DNA of 64,000 nucleotides from Nitrososphaeraceae archaeon (GTDB lineage Archaea; Thermoproteota; Nitrososphaeria; Nitrososphaerales; Nitrososphaeraceae), in assembly GCA_016782225.1 (NCBI GenBank), contig JADDOW010000112.1, positions 52,058-116,057 of the forward strand, in the 5' to 3' direction. Shown here piece by piece: positions 40,654 through 46,512 of this stretch. The notes beneath the pieces were generated by a model. The model had not been told where the DNA came from. It did not search any database and was given only the letters and a program-made list of their open reading frames with translations. Position 1 is the first letter of the stretch. The number at the start of each line of letters is the position of its first letter. The translations under genes and the position numbers were made by a program.

Positions 40654-41853
40654 TTAGCTCACAATGTCTGCTAATGCGTCTCCAGATGCAGCAGGGTTTG
40701 ATGCATTGTTGTTGTTTATGATGGTGCCCCCAATAGGATCGAGTCCTCTTTCTACTAGAACTTTATCTAACAGTGTCAAATCATAGATATTTGATAAATT
40801 TGGCCTTTCTTTTCCCTTCTCTATCAATCCAAGGTCATAGGCATCATTAGCATCTTTGATTAACGATAGTTTTATCGGATCATATGTAAATTCCAGCTTT
40901 GTCACTGCAGTTGCTAAAACATTTTCCGGTATTGTTTTTCCAGTCAGTTTCTTTAGTTGAACGTTAAATTCACTTATTGCCTTTTCTTTGTTATTGTTTA
41001 TTCTTAAAGTTTCATCTACATGGGCATCCAATAGCTTTTCTATTACGTCTGGGTTTTTCTTCAAATAGTCAGTTCTAACAATGATGTTTCCTGTAACGAA
41101 TTTCCCTTCAGGTGGCCATAAATCCCTCTCATCGACAAACACTTTACCATTTGCCTCGTTTATCAATCTGATGCCCCATGGTTCGGGAACCCATGCCCCA
41201 TCAATTTCTTTCTTTAACATGAGTGTGACTATGTCTGATGGTTTTACCGCAACCACTGTTACGTTTCCTCCATTTTCCACCGTATTGAATCCATTGTCAA
41301 TGATGTACTTTCTAAGCGATATGTCCTGTGTATTGCCCAGCTGCGGGGATGCAAACTTCTTTCCGCCCAAATCGTCAACCGATTCGATTCCTGCATCATT
41401 TCTCACAATAAATGATGCCCCACCGCTTGATGCCCCTGCTATGACTCTTACATCCTTCCCACCTGAAACTACATATCCATTGATTGCGGGATTGGGGCCG
41501 ATGTATGTGACATCGATCCTCTTTGCTAACAATGCCTCAATGGCTGATGGCCCTGCGTTGAAAACAAACGTTTCAACATTAGTGTTGTTCCCTAAACTCT
41601 TTTGATAGTCCCCGTTATTGAGCCCAATAACTGCCTGAGCGTGATTTATGTTTGGAAAATAGCCTATTCTTAAGGTACTTGTTTTTTCTGATGGGGTTTG
41701 CTGTGCGTTTACACCGTTAATTGGATAACTTGATAATATTGCAAAGGTTACAAAAATCGTGATAAGGATTGAAATGGATTTTGATTTCTGTATGTATTGA
41801 TTGTTGTGTTGTGATTTATATCTATTTTTTGACAGCGATATTTTGAATTTCAT
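40654..41853 (-). CDS. ABC transporter substrate-binding protein, NitT/TauT/SsuA family (paralog 1)
   Basis: LRIGYFPNINHAQAVIGL, AGPSAIEALLAKRIDVTYIGPNPAINGYV, GAWVPEPWG; signal-like N-terminus. Confidence 0.92.
   Translation of the reverse strand: MKFKISLSKNRYKSQHNNQYIQKSKSISILITIFVTFAILSSYPINGVNAQQTPSEKTSTLRIGYFPNINHAQAVIGLNNGDYQKSLGNNTNVETFVFNAGPSAIEALLAKRIDVTYIGPNPAINGYVVSGGKDVRVIAGASSGGASFIVRNDAGIESVDDLGGKKFASPQLGNTQDISLRKYIIDNGFNTVENGGNVTVVAVKPSDIVTLMLKKEIDGAWVPEPWGIRLINEANGKVFVDERDLWPPEGKFVTGNIIVRTDYLKKNPDVIEKLLDAHVDETLRINNNKEKAISEFNVQLKKLTGKTIPENVLATAVTKLEFTYDPIKLSLIKDANDAYDLGLIEKGKERPNLSNIYDLTLLDKVLVERGLDPIGGTIINNNNASNPAASGDALADIVS
41017..41436 (-). repeat. ~420-bp near-identical direct repeat unit A (within SBP paralog 1)
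   Basis: Matches 42461-42880 with two visible mismatches (41026, 41058). Confidence 0.95.
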
Positions 41854-42091
41854 TTTTAAGACTTCTTTGTGGCAGTCATATAATATGGCTATTGAATATG
41901 CAAGTTATTCTATTGTTATGCGAATTATACCTATTCTTTATGGTTAACGGGTTTACAGCAATCTGGTGAACCAGATAGAAAATAAATTACACCTATTATC
42001 AGTTAATGTTTGGTTTTAGAAAAAACATAACTTTCAAAACAAACCAAAAAATAAATCATGAAAACAATGGATGAAACTTTATTTTACATTT

Positions 42092-43306
42092 TTATCGTAT
42101 TTCTCCAAGTCCTTTTTCTTGTAATACTTTGTTTAACAAAGTCAAATCATATATTCCGGTGATGTCTATCGCGTTATTTCCTTTTGTGTTCTTTAGGAAT
42201 CCTAATCTGTTTGCATCATCTGCTATTTTGAATAGTGATGCCTTTATCGGATCATATGTAAAGTCCATCTTTGTTAGTGCTTCTTTTAATTCATTTTCGG
42301 GTATTGTTTTTCCAGTGACTTGTCTTAAACCATCGTTAAATGCATTAACCACTTCCGCACTGCTGCTAATATTGTTGTCGTCGTTAAAATTCGTCTCTTT
42401 TGATGTATTGTTTTCATTATTTATTTCACTTAATTTCTCATTAATCCATAGCGTTTGGTTTACATGGGCCTCCAATAGCTTTTCTATTACGTCTGGGTTT
42501 TCCTTCAAATAGTCAGTTCTAACAATGATGTTTCCTGTAACGAATTTCCCTTCAGGTGGCCATAAATCCCTCTCATCGACAAACACTTTACCATTTGCCT
42601 CGTTTATCAATCTGATGCCCCATGGTTCGGGAACCCATGCCCCATCAATTTCTTTCTTTAACATGAGTGTGACTATGTCTGATGGTTTTACCGCAACCAC
42701 TGTTACGTTTCCTCCATTTTCCACCGTATTGAATCCATTGTCAATGATGTACTTTCTAAGCGATATGTCCTGTGTATTGCCCAGCTGCGGGGATGCAAAC
42801 TTCTTTCCGCCCAAATCGTCAACCGATTCGATTCCTGCATCATTTCTCACAATAAATGATGCCCCACCGCTTGATGCCCCAGATACTATTCGCAGTCCTT
42901 CATTGCTTGATGCAATAAATCCGCTAATTGCAGGATTTGGACCGACATATGCAGCATCTATTTGACCTCCAAATAATGCCTCTATTGCTGATGGTCCGGC
43001 GCTAAATACAAATTCATTTATCCCTATTTTACTTTGATCTGTGCTGCTGCTGCTGCTGCTGCTGTTAATGCTCTCGAAAACCTTAAGAAACTCCCCGTTT
43101 TTTAACCCTATTATGGCTTGGGCATGATTTACATTGGGAAAATACCCTAATCGCAATGTTTTTGATTCGGGTGTATCGTTGTTTGTAATCCTGGTAATGC
43201 TGTTTGTATTAATTGAAAATAATCCGTGGTTATCTGATTGTGAAGATGCTATTACTGCTATGATTATTCCGAATGAGACTGTAAATTTTGTTTTTGTATT
43301 CACCAA
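42092..43306 (-). CDS. ABC transporter substrate-binding protein, NitT/TauT/SsuA family (paralog 2)
   Basis: LRLGYFPNVNHAQAIIGL, AGPSAIEALFGGQIDAAYVGPNPAISGF; shares identical central domain with paralog 1. Confidence 0.92.
   Translation of the reverse strand: MVNTKTKFTVSFGIIIAVIASSQSDNHGLFSINTNSITRITNNDTPESKTLRLGYFPNVNHAQAIIGLKNGEFLKVFESINSSSSSSSTDQSKIGINEFVFSAGPSAIEALFGGQIDAAYVGPNPAISGFIASSNEGLRIVSGASSGGASFIVRNDAGIESVDDLGGKKFASPQLGNTQDISLRKYIIDNGFNTVENGGNVTVVAVKPSDIVTLMLKKEIDGAWVPEPWGIRLINEANGKVFVDERDLWPPEGKFVTGNIIVRTDYLKENPDVIEKLLEAHVNQTLWINEKLSEINNENNTSKETNFNDDNNISSSAEVVNAFNDGLRQVTGKTIPENELKEALTKMDFTYDPIKASLFKIADDANRLGFLKNTKGNNAIDITGIYDLTLLNKVLQEKGLGEIR
42461..42880 (-). repeat. ~420-bp near-identical direct repeat unit B (within SBP paralog 2)
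   Basis: Same block at constant offset of 1444 bp from unit A. Confidence 0.95.
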
Positions 43307-43751: not shown

Positions 43752-44672
43752 TTATGTATTTTCTTGTTCTTGCTTTAATCCCCATTTTTCTCTTACCTTG
43801 TCCTCTAATTTCATGAATAACATCCTGTCAAATAACATGCCTAATGCAAAGATAGTGATCATTGACGCTATAATCTGATTCATTGCCTGAAACTCTCTTC
43901 CAATTAGTAATATGTGGCCTATACCTATCGACGCGGCCATTAGTATTTCAGCCCCAATTAGTGCATGCCACGCAAAAGACCATGCTTGTTTGATTCCGGT
44001 TATCAAAGCGGGAGTGGCAGCGGGAATCATGAGATACCGAAATAAATGAATTCCTTTGGCGCCCATGTTTTTTGCTGCTCGGATATAGATTGTCGGTATG
44101 TTGCGCATCCCACTGTATGTTGACATCATTACTGAAAACACAGAACTCATTACAACAACAAACAATATTCCAGCATCATTCAGGCCTATCAGTAGGATTG
44201 CAAAAGGAACCCATGCTACGCTTGGAAATGACTGTAGCCCTATAGCAAAAGAGCCCATGGTCTTTCCAAAACCTGTAAATTTTACCATTGCAAGACCAAT
44301 TGCTACACCTAATGCTATGGATATGAAAAAACCAATTGTTAGCCTATACAAAGTCATTGCTATACTTGTTATGAGCATATTATTTTGTAGTAATTCATAA
44401 AATGACTCTGCAACCATTAATGGGGATGGCAATGATATCTTTGGCCATATTCCTAAAACGTAAATTAGCTGCCAAATGCCTATAAACGCCATCAGGAATA
44501 ATGTTGTATTTGCTAATTCATCAAAGTTGATTTTTTTTTTATTGGCAAAAATAAAGTGATGCTTTCTGCTTTTTTCTACTGTGGTTGATTCTACATCTTG
44601 TAGATGTTTTATTTTTATTTCTTTATTTTTGTCTTCCTTTGTGTTTGTGTTGTCTTTGGATGAATTGCGCAC
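43752..44672 (-). CDS. ABC transporter permease, NitT/TauT/SsuC family
   Basis: Six TM-like segments; GLQSFPSVAWVPFAILLIGLNDAGILFVV; EAA-like loop AAKNMGAKGIHLFRYLMIPAATPALITGI. Confidence 0.93.
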   Translation of the reverse strand: MRNSSKDNTNTKEDKNKEIKIKHLQDVESTTVEKSRKHHFIFANKKKINFDELANTTLFLMAFIGIWQLIYVLGIWPKISLPSPLMVAESFYELLQNNMLITSIAMTLYRLTIGFFISIALGVAIGLAMVKFTGFGKTMGSFAIGLQSFPSVAWVPFAILLIGLNDAGILFVVVMSSVFSVMMSTYSGMRNIPTIYIRAAKNMGAKGIHLFRYLMIPAATPALITGIKQAWSFAWHALIGAEILMAASIGIGHILLIGREFQAMNQIIASMITIFALGMLFDRMLFMKLEDKVREKWGLKQEQENT

Positions 44673-44826: not shown

Positions 44827-45825
44827 TTATACCCATTCGTCTTTAACCAGATTGTAAACCTTTTTTCTGGTGTCATCAAGACTGTTTTTTTCTATTATTA
44901 GCCCCTGGTTTCTCAATTCTTCAACCGATGCCTGAACTGTTCTCCTTGGGAGATTAGTCATGTAAATCAACTCGCTTTGTTCTATTGGATGCTTGTTGCG
45001 AATTATGTAGTAGATGAATTTTGTTGCCGGACTCCCCTCGGGTCCTTTTTTTACTGGATTTATGCTAAAGCTTGCTTTTGAAAGAAACCCTCTTCTTTGA
45101 GATTCAATGGATGCCACGTTTTCTAGTTTTACCTCTCCTAAGTTTACCCTCTGGCCAAATTCAGCTATCAATACAGCCTGCTGGATTTCAAGTGGTGCTT
45201 CAAAAATTATGTTGTTTGGCGGGATTTTGGATGTAATGGCTGACAAAAGATTCCACTTTACGTCCCCTTTTTCATCATAAAGCCCAACACTGTAACCTAG
45301 ATTTGCCTCCAGTATTATCTTCTCCCGTTGGTTTATCTCCAATGCCTCGTTTGCCCTTTTTATGGTCTCATCCACTGTTAACTGCCTTCTTGGATCCTTT
45401 CTGCCTATTTTCCATTGGTGTCTCAAATATTGCGACTCTATTATTTTTGTAATCTTCTTCTTTTCATCAAAAGAAAGGTGTATGTTATTTTCACTAATTT
45501 CTATAATGTCAAATCCAGATATTTTGGATTCCTCAACGAATTTTTCGAAAACGTTTTCTCTCAAAGCGTATTCTGTGAGAGTGCTGCCTGTTGAAACCAA
45601 AACGTTGTTTTCATGATAGAAATTTATCCTTTTTATTAGATGGTTATCTGATATTAAAAGAGGGTAAGCACCATAGATTTTCACCATATCCACGAAAGGG
45701 GAGATGATTTCAAAGTTTTCCCTATCAAACCCTTGGAATTTATCTATTATGTAGGTAATTCCTTCGTGTCTTGGCTTTTTGTGGTCAACCCTATTCTCGA
45801 TTAGACTATCTAACATAATATACAT
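44827..45825 (-). CDS. Phosphosulfolactate synthase (ComA)-like TIM barrel fused to C-terminal winged-helix domain
   Basis: VDMVKIYGAYPLL, GSTLTEYAL, GFDIIEISENNIHLS, RQLTVDETIKRANEAL, IILEANLGYSVGLYDEKGDVK, IIFEAPLEIQQAVLIAEFGQRVNLGEV..ESQRRGF; wHTH ELIYMTNLPRRTVQASVEELRNQGLIIEK. Confidence 0.82.
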   Translation of the reverse strand: MYIMLDSLIENRVDHKKPRHEGITYIIDKFQGFDRENFEIISPFVDMVKIYGAYPLLISDNHLIKRINFYHENNVLVSTGSTLTEYALRENVFEKFVEESKISGFDIIEISENNIHLSFDEKKKITKIIESQYLRHQWKIGRKDPRRQLTVDETIKRANEALEINQREKIILEANLGYSVGLYDEKGDVKWNLLSAITSKIPPNNIIFEAPLEIQQAVLIAEFGQRVNLGEVKLENVASIESQRRGFLSKASFSINPVKKGPEGSPATKFIYYIIRNKHPIEQSELIYMTNLPRRTVQASVEELRNQGLIIEKNSLDDTRKKVYNLVKDEWV

Positions 45826-46512
45826 CTTTTATATGCGATATCTGCATATTTTGAAGTATTGATATGAATTACAAAGAAAACTCCAAATAATCGAAAACAA
45901 TGCGCGAATTGACAAACATAAAAAACTGCAAACAAAACGAGCGGATACTTCACCTATTTAGTAAAAACAGTATTCAAGAATAATTATATCATCTTTATAC
46001 ATTATATGGTATAATACAACTGCAATAAGGTTGAATTATCATGCAATTGATTGGAAGTATCCATCTCCGTTTCCTCCAATCAAATTTCAAAAATCTTGCT
46101 AATGGAATTGACCACAATAGGATTTAATATTGCTGAAAAACAACCTATTTTGTGTTCTATGTCATTATTTGCAATCACGTCATGTTCCAAAACTTTCCAT
46201 AATGTCAATGGCCATTAAAATATTGTTAACATGGATACCATACTTTTACTTATTTTGTGTATTTCTATAAATCGAATGGAGTTTTTGTTTCAAGTCTTTT
46301 GTATCTCTGCAGCTGCTAGAAGTTTTTGTGTTCATGCTGTTTCGATTTCTATGGTTTGAGTATTTGGAATTGGGTAAATAGGATGTGCATTTGATGTGCA
46401 CTCATTAGGTTATGAGGCATCTGAGACCATCCGCCAAGGTTTTACTTAAAATTTGAATTTTGTTACCTTGATTTTATGTTGTAATTTATATTAAACATGG
46501 TCATTATGTTTC

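Follow-up and report, generated by a model that had tools for sequence, protein, structure and literature searches.

A phosphosulfolactate synthase-like barrel fused to a MarR-like winged helix: a candidate one-component regulator beside Ssu-type transport genes in Nitrososphaeraceae

The gene described here lies in a 64-kb window (the whole stretch of DNA that was analysed) which, judged by named relatives, is close to Candidatus Nitrosocosmicus. Its product is a ComA barrel fused to a MarR-like winged helix, and it is the only such copy in its own genome. As the initial annotation had described, it is located beside an SsuC-like permease gene and two SsuA-like genes on the same strand, with the fused gene upstream of the permease and a gap of 154 bp between them (Table 1). 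All NCBIfam scores of the permease lie under the equivalog cut-offs, and no ssuB adjoins the locus in the window. Between the two ssuA-like genes a 300-nt block is 97% identical (40997-41296 and 42441-42740), with 71% identity in another aligned part, which suggests a recent gene conversion or partial duplication. Sulfonate is a possible cargo of the neighbouring transporter, and sulfonate (taurine-type) transporters in these archaea have been described from sequence by comparative genomics (PMC4129164). None of the 70 genomes searched in the family gave an SsuD equivalog (TIGR03565) match above cut-off.

Table 1. Coordinates of the features at the locus, in positions of the window.
Feature	Position	Strand	Details
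ComA-barrel and winged-helix gene	44827..45825	minus	332 aa; probable start codon 45816
ComA (PF02679) barrel, residues 15-248, predicted catalytic face remodelled	45082..45783	minus	Pfam, structure and residue comparison
Winged helix, approximately residues 265-327	44845..45033	minus	recognition helix with invariant R294 R295 T296
Candidate autoregulatory operator ATATGCGATATCTGCATAT (plus-strand reading)	45831..45849		centre 24 bp before M4 start
SsuC/TauC-type ABC permease	43752..44672	minus	PF00528 1.8e-14; NCBIfam SaoP 1.8e-39, SsuC 1.5e-28
SsuA-like substrate-binding protein 1	42092..43306	minus	TIGR01728 145.7 bits, below cut-off 163.5
SsuA-like substrate-binding protein 2	40654..41853	minus	TIGR01728 188.9 bits, above cut-off 163.5
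Weak operator-like site, GCATA third half-site downstream	41916..41934		centre 72 bp upstream of ssuA2

The family alignment, with its consensus MLDxL, places the probable true start of the protein at M4. A Pfam search matched the N-terminal part to ComA at an E-value of 9.9e-60. The AlphaFold2 model of the whole protein, with a 37-sequence alignment as input, had a mean pLDDT of 86.7 and showed a disordered linker at residues 248-259 between both domains. In a structure search, the modelled barrel matched M. jannaschii ComA (PDB 1qwg) with an E-value of 2.6e-20 and a target TM of 0.87, at approximately 29% identity over the structural alignment. In the case of the C-terminal domain, the matches at the sequence level were weak (MarR_2, E 0.0047; MsvR, 2.8e-4), the MarR_2 score of 17.5 bits being below family level given the Pfam cut-off of 27; a family profile search matched the SlyA/MarR-like PDB entry 4mnu at 1.6e-4. 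By structure, however, the fold is confident: modelled by itself, the domain had a core pLDDT of about 95, and its top PDB matches were MarR-family regulators. The model consists of three helices and a wing after the linker, and the flanking helices of MarR-type dimerisation are absent from it. In the family alignment the recognition helix begins with invariant arginines. Both the fusion and the winged-helix nature of its C-terminus, as first proposed from the sequence, were therefore borne out.

Related winged helices were also seen outside the fused genes. A genuine free copy was found solely beside one fused gene, in Nitrosopumilaceae (L235:9051-9359), where it is divergent from the full ComA-winged-helix gene; a seemingly free-standing one beside ssuA in G044 was rejected, as there the contig ends within a fused gene. 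A second fusion to a metabolic enzyme is the NAD kinase of ammonia-oxidizing archaea (AOA), whose C-terminal MarR-like winged helix is related to the one described here; most of the AOA genomes examined have one copy of this gene (G000:C69:12353-12565 (L232:1345-2349); L231:1056-2054). The NAD kinase of L231 matches PF20143 and MarR_2, both above cut-off.

As the barrel resembles an enzyme, its residues were compared, in M. jannaschii numbering, among 7 canonical ComA proteins, 39 Thermoplasmata fusions and 35 Nitrososphaerales fusions. G45, W46, G75, G107, E133 and R170 are found in 7/7 canonical proteins and in at least 37 of the 39 Thermoplasmata fusions, and all six are replaced in 35/35 Nitrososphaerales fusions, including the window protein. 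K209, present in 7/7 canonical proteins, has given way to E in all 39 Thermoplasmata fusions and in 33 of the 35 Nitrososphaerales ones, and it is replaced in the window protein too. The S105 position is retained almost without exception in the Thermoplasmata fusions and substituted in 30/35 Nitrososphaerales ones; the window protein keeps its serine (S111). Judged from the fold, the replaced positions would sit at the C-terminal ends of the barrel strands and so on the catalytic face. The altered motifs noticed initially (FGWGT to IYGAYP, GGTL to GSTL) were confirmed and are fixed throughout the lineage. Persistence of the catalytic residues is partial: seven invariant ones are replaced, and K137, E103, E168 and E205 are kept in the window protein. 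Across the Nitrososphaerales, K137 is retained in 31/35 fusions (R in 3), and E103, E168, E205 and R240 in all copies.

ComB is the enzyme that follows ComA in CoM synthesis. A profile search for ComB (PF04029), positive in the M. jannaschii control, found it in 0 of 70 family genomes, and the canonical CoM-pathway setting that would have spoken against the initial annotation did not materialise at the sequence level. With the ComA equivalog model TIGR03849 the window protein scored 155.6 bits, below the cut-off of 280. Because the residues are replaced and ComB is absent from the 70 genomes, the Nitrososphaerales protein should, on these sequence grounds, not be filed as a phosphosulfolactate synthase. 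The bifunctional enzyme-regulator, offered initially as an option, is weakened for this lineage, and some residual activity may survive because K137 and several acidic residues persist. A reading of this kind would be a trigger enzyme, which performs a ComA-like addition to PEP, maybe with another nucleophile, and regulates with turnover or occupancy as the signal. It draws on the retained K137, E103, E168, E205 and R240 and on the Thermoplasmata fusions (L143-L164), which have a near-canonical, nearly whole ComA signature and a short-chain dehydrogenase gene after them in 13 of 22 loci. Against this, W46, G75, G107, E133 and R170 are lost from every Nitrososphaerales copy, the equivalog score is low and ComB is missing, so that we consider it improbable, albeit the best of the alternatives.

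ComA is present in 57 of 70 genomes from the window's own taxonomic family and, where complete, nearly always in a frame of approximately 330-380 aa. The fusion architecture occurs in most Nitrososphaeraceae and also in a few Nitrosopumilaceae, in deep Thaumarchaeota (41% identity) and in many Thermoplasmata (36-40%). A quick, midpoint-rooted tree of the ComA domain places the Nitrososphaerales sequences within the Thermoplasmata-type fusions, with a support of 0.996. A survey of the fusions and their neighbours, as recommended at the outset, showed that the linkage to SsuA/B/C-type genes is conserved and the orientation varied, with tandem, divergent and operon-internal gene orders. SsuA and SsuC genes lie within 8.5 kb of 27-29 of the 43 copies examined. 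Six complete genomes together contain 12 copies, of which 9 have ssuA within 3 kb, with about 1% expected per gene; the nominal binomial p of 5e-16 under random placement is a guide only, as the genomes are related. The linkage is also found at 41% identity, in NC_groundwater Thaumarchaeota (L140, L141). In G408 the fused gene lies within ssuB-ssuC-X-ssuA, and ssuBCA is uninterrupted in syntenic relatives. Of 67 family copies, 29 lie away from ssuA. Some of them come from short contigs; others represent a second paralogue, at a PNPOx/VOC locus, or a copy with menaquinone-type genes as neighbours. In related archaea, ssuA-type genes are common even where the fused gene is absent, and the regulator would therefore be a facultative partner.

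Several relatives deserve separate mention. The second Nitrosocosmicus paralogue, approximately 63% identical, occupies a conserved PNPOx/VOC/SRPBCC locus and lacks the palindrome described below (L058, L038, L035, L037, L050, L052, L057). A divergent paralogue (40% identical) adjoins ssuA and ssuBC (L070:10166-11155, L069:2752-3744), its ComA barrel strongly eroded and its winged helix conserved. In G018 a winged-helix relic upstream of ssuC (L230:6181-6276) is apparently a decayed copy at an Ssu locus. In the case of the Thermoplasmata, a CTGC...GCAG palindrome lies near the start codon in 5 of 22 loci (shuffle maximum 3), which is suggestive only.

Upstream of the Ssu-linked copies of the fused gene, and over the start-proximal promoter, we found a near-perfect 19-base palindrome, ATATGCAGAATCTGCATAT, centred mostly about 15-25 bp before the start codon. 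Its instance before the window gene is the sole exact ATATGC-N7-GCATAT in the 64 kb. Copies that are not linked to Ssu genes are without the motif. A matrix was then trained solely on hand-picked regulator-upstream sites from related genomes. Among genes outside the training, it matched 45-105 bp upstream of ssuB in 10/17 cases, of ssuA in 9/21 and of other genes in 4/383 (Fisher enrichment versus other genes of 7e-13 for ssuB and 3e-10 for ssuA, values that are inflated because of the shared ancestry of the genomes and serve as guides only). The sites precede non-homologous genes and occur in several genera. At ssuA and ssuB the centre of the site is usually 67-73 bp upstream of the start codon, and in 15 of 19 such promoters a third half-site, GC[AG][CT]A, was detected (shuffle mean 0.15). 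This half-site (GCATA) comes after the palindrome, at a fixed offset of approximately 15 bp, and is followed by an AT-rich TATA-like stretch, TATA positions being inferred from base composition and not from mapped transcripts.

The motif also follows the presence of the regulator gene. In loci from 9 genomes that lack it, 0 of 22 Ssu genes scored above 8. Among held-out loci with it, the sites of L229 and L233 scored 14.8 (at -70) and 14.5 (at -53), and in those of G369 (L234) the Ssu genes all scored below 8. A degenerate consensus had a single exact match in G025 and a single one in G042, each of them between the regulator gene and ssuA. Within the window, the autoregulatory site is the only strong one: the site ahead of ssuA2 has a matrix score of 10.0, which is not significant alone, yet it stands at the conserved -70 position; no site was found upstream of ssuA1 (score 4.6) and none was seen before ssuC. 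Altogether, a conserved candidate operator is present at the promoters of the regulator and of its predicted targets. It is the strongest new support for the regulator reading of the initial annotation, which is considerably strengthened by it.

The regulon scan covered selected loci and genome-wide pattern searches. A few genes for small cysteine-containing or secreted proteins carry the motif at the same upstream position as ssuA and ssuB. For the small cysteine-containing proteins, one with DUF326, the palindrome is 52-76 bp upstream (L033:8234-8521, L044:9792-10058, L070:3865-4110, L034:5795-6028, L039:13737-14087), and these genes are possible further targets. A distant regulon is not claimed, as more than half of the palindrome matches with 2 mismatches outside Ssu loci are intragenic, and the loose pattern ATGC-N5-9-GCATA was unusable alone, with 128 strand hits in G000. 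An RNA structure was rejected (z of -0.71). Likeness to the N. viennensis copper-limitation motif, TTCSGSMTTTGWACYANT (PMC7785015), was rejected as well, the sequence being different.

The palindrome could be bound by another factor, with the fused protein acting as an enzyme or binding protein whose winged helix makes protein contacts. Winged helices are able to mediate non-DNA contacts, and the NAD kinases of AOA carry a related one. However, across genera the motif tracks the regulator gene, and it is absent at regulator-less loci and at non-Ssu paralogues, and a recognition helix opening with invariant arginines likewise argues for DNA binding, which makes such a division of roles very unlikely. 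Least credible of all is a plain phosphosulfolactate synthase whose C-terminal extension is incidental and whose neighbourhood is coincidental, a reading for which the strong Pfam match speaks, against replaced active-site residues, a conserved winged helix and linkage, and the absent CoM pathway partner.

We therefore favour, with a probability of roughly 0.78, a one-component regulator derived from the phosphosulfolactate synthase fold, which would repress itself and control the adjoining Ssu-type genes with the barrel as sensor. One chain holds a sensor-type and a DNA-binding domain; ligand sensing would fall to the barrel. Domain structure, linkage, residue loss, the motif and the co-occurrence of the motif with the regulator gene are computed results, whereas we infer that the protein binds DNA, in what oligomeric form it does so, in which direction it regulates, what it senses and what the transporter carries. 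Oligomerisation of the ComA barrel would form pairs of MarR-like winged helices, and these would bind ATATGCAGAATCTGCATAT. At its own promoter the site, with its centre at -18 to -25 relative to the start codon, overlies the inferred TATA region, which is why autorepression is proposed. At the ssuA and ssuB promoters activation is proposed because the palindrome and third half-site sit upstream of the inferred TATA box, at about -70. The barrel, with catalytic residues replaced and the anion-binding pocket partly kept, would most likely sense a PEP-, sulfite- or sulfonate-like metabolite. In the proposal of a regulator of sulfonate uptake, the regulator part has gained from the winged-helix fold, the Ssu linkage, the loss of signature residues, the absence of ComB from 70 genomes and a palindrome that the lineage conserves before both the regulator gene and ssuA/ssuB, and sulfonate itself stays a prediction.

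A wider reading seems to us slightly better than an even bet: an undescribed archaeal one-component family in which ComA serves as the sensor of a winged-helix repressor/activator, the Thermoplasmata fusions with their nearly intact signature are bifunctional intermediates, and AOA control Ssu-type uptake through the palindrome and third half-site. In the literature searched, no earlier description of ComA-winged-helix proteins was found.

Compared with ComA enzymes (PF02679; TIGR03849; 1qwg), the window protein has the same barrel fold and the retained K137, E103, E168 and E205, but it adds the winged helix, replaces several invariant residues, belongs to genomes without ComB, is linked to ABC transport genes and has its own palindrome. 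With MarR-type regulators (PF12802/PF01047), the best PDB matches of its C-terminal domain, it shares the helix-helix-helix-wing fold, whereas its effector part is a ComA barrel, only three helices and a wing are modelled and the Pfam scores are below cut-off. PurR/GfcR (PRTase-winged helix) and ROK repressors are enzyme-derived one-component regulators; we know of no characterised one that uses a ComA barrel. MocR is an aminotransferase-winged-helix regulator of the same enzyme-derived kind (PMC6677901). Here, likewise, a metabolic enzyme fold appears to be reused as effector domain together with a winged helix. Cbl, of the LysR type, regulates sulfonate genes in enterobacteria. CysB, also LysR-type, regulates sulfur genes there (PMC11329422). 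The role predicted here, control of sulfur/sulfonate acquisition, is the same, whereas protein family and site are unrelated.

Ammonia-oxidizing archaea are abundant in soil, and to our knowledge few of their metabolite-responsive regulators have been characterised. The fused protein is a candidate for such a regulator; it comes with a candidate operator and predicted targets, and some relatives exist in culture. The annotation of these proteins as phosphosulfolactate synthase is probably misleading. If the regulator reading is true, a CoM synthesis enzyme has become a sensor for transcription, Thermoplasmata have what look like intermediates of this change, and the regulator's ligand could reveal the substrate of the widespread SsuABC-type transporter of AOA.
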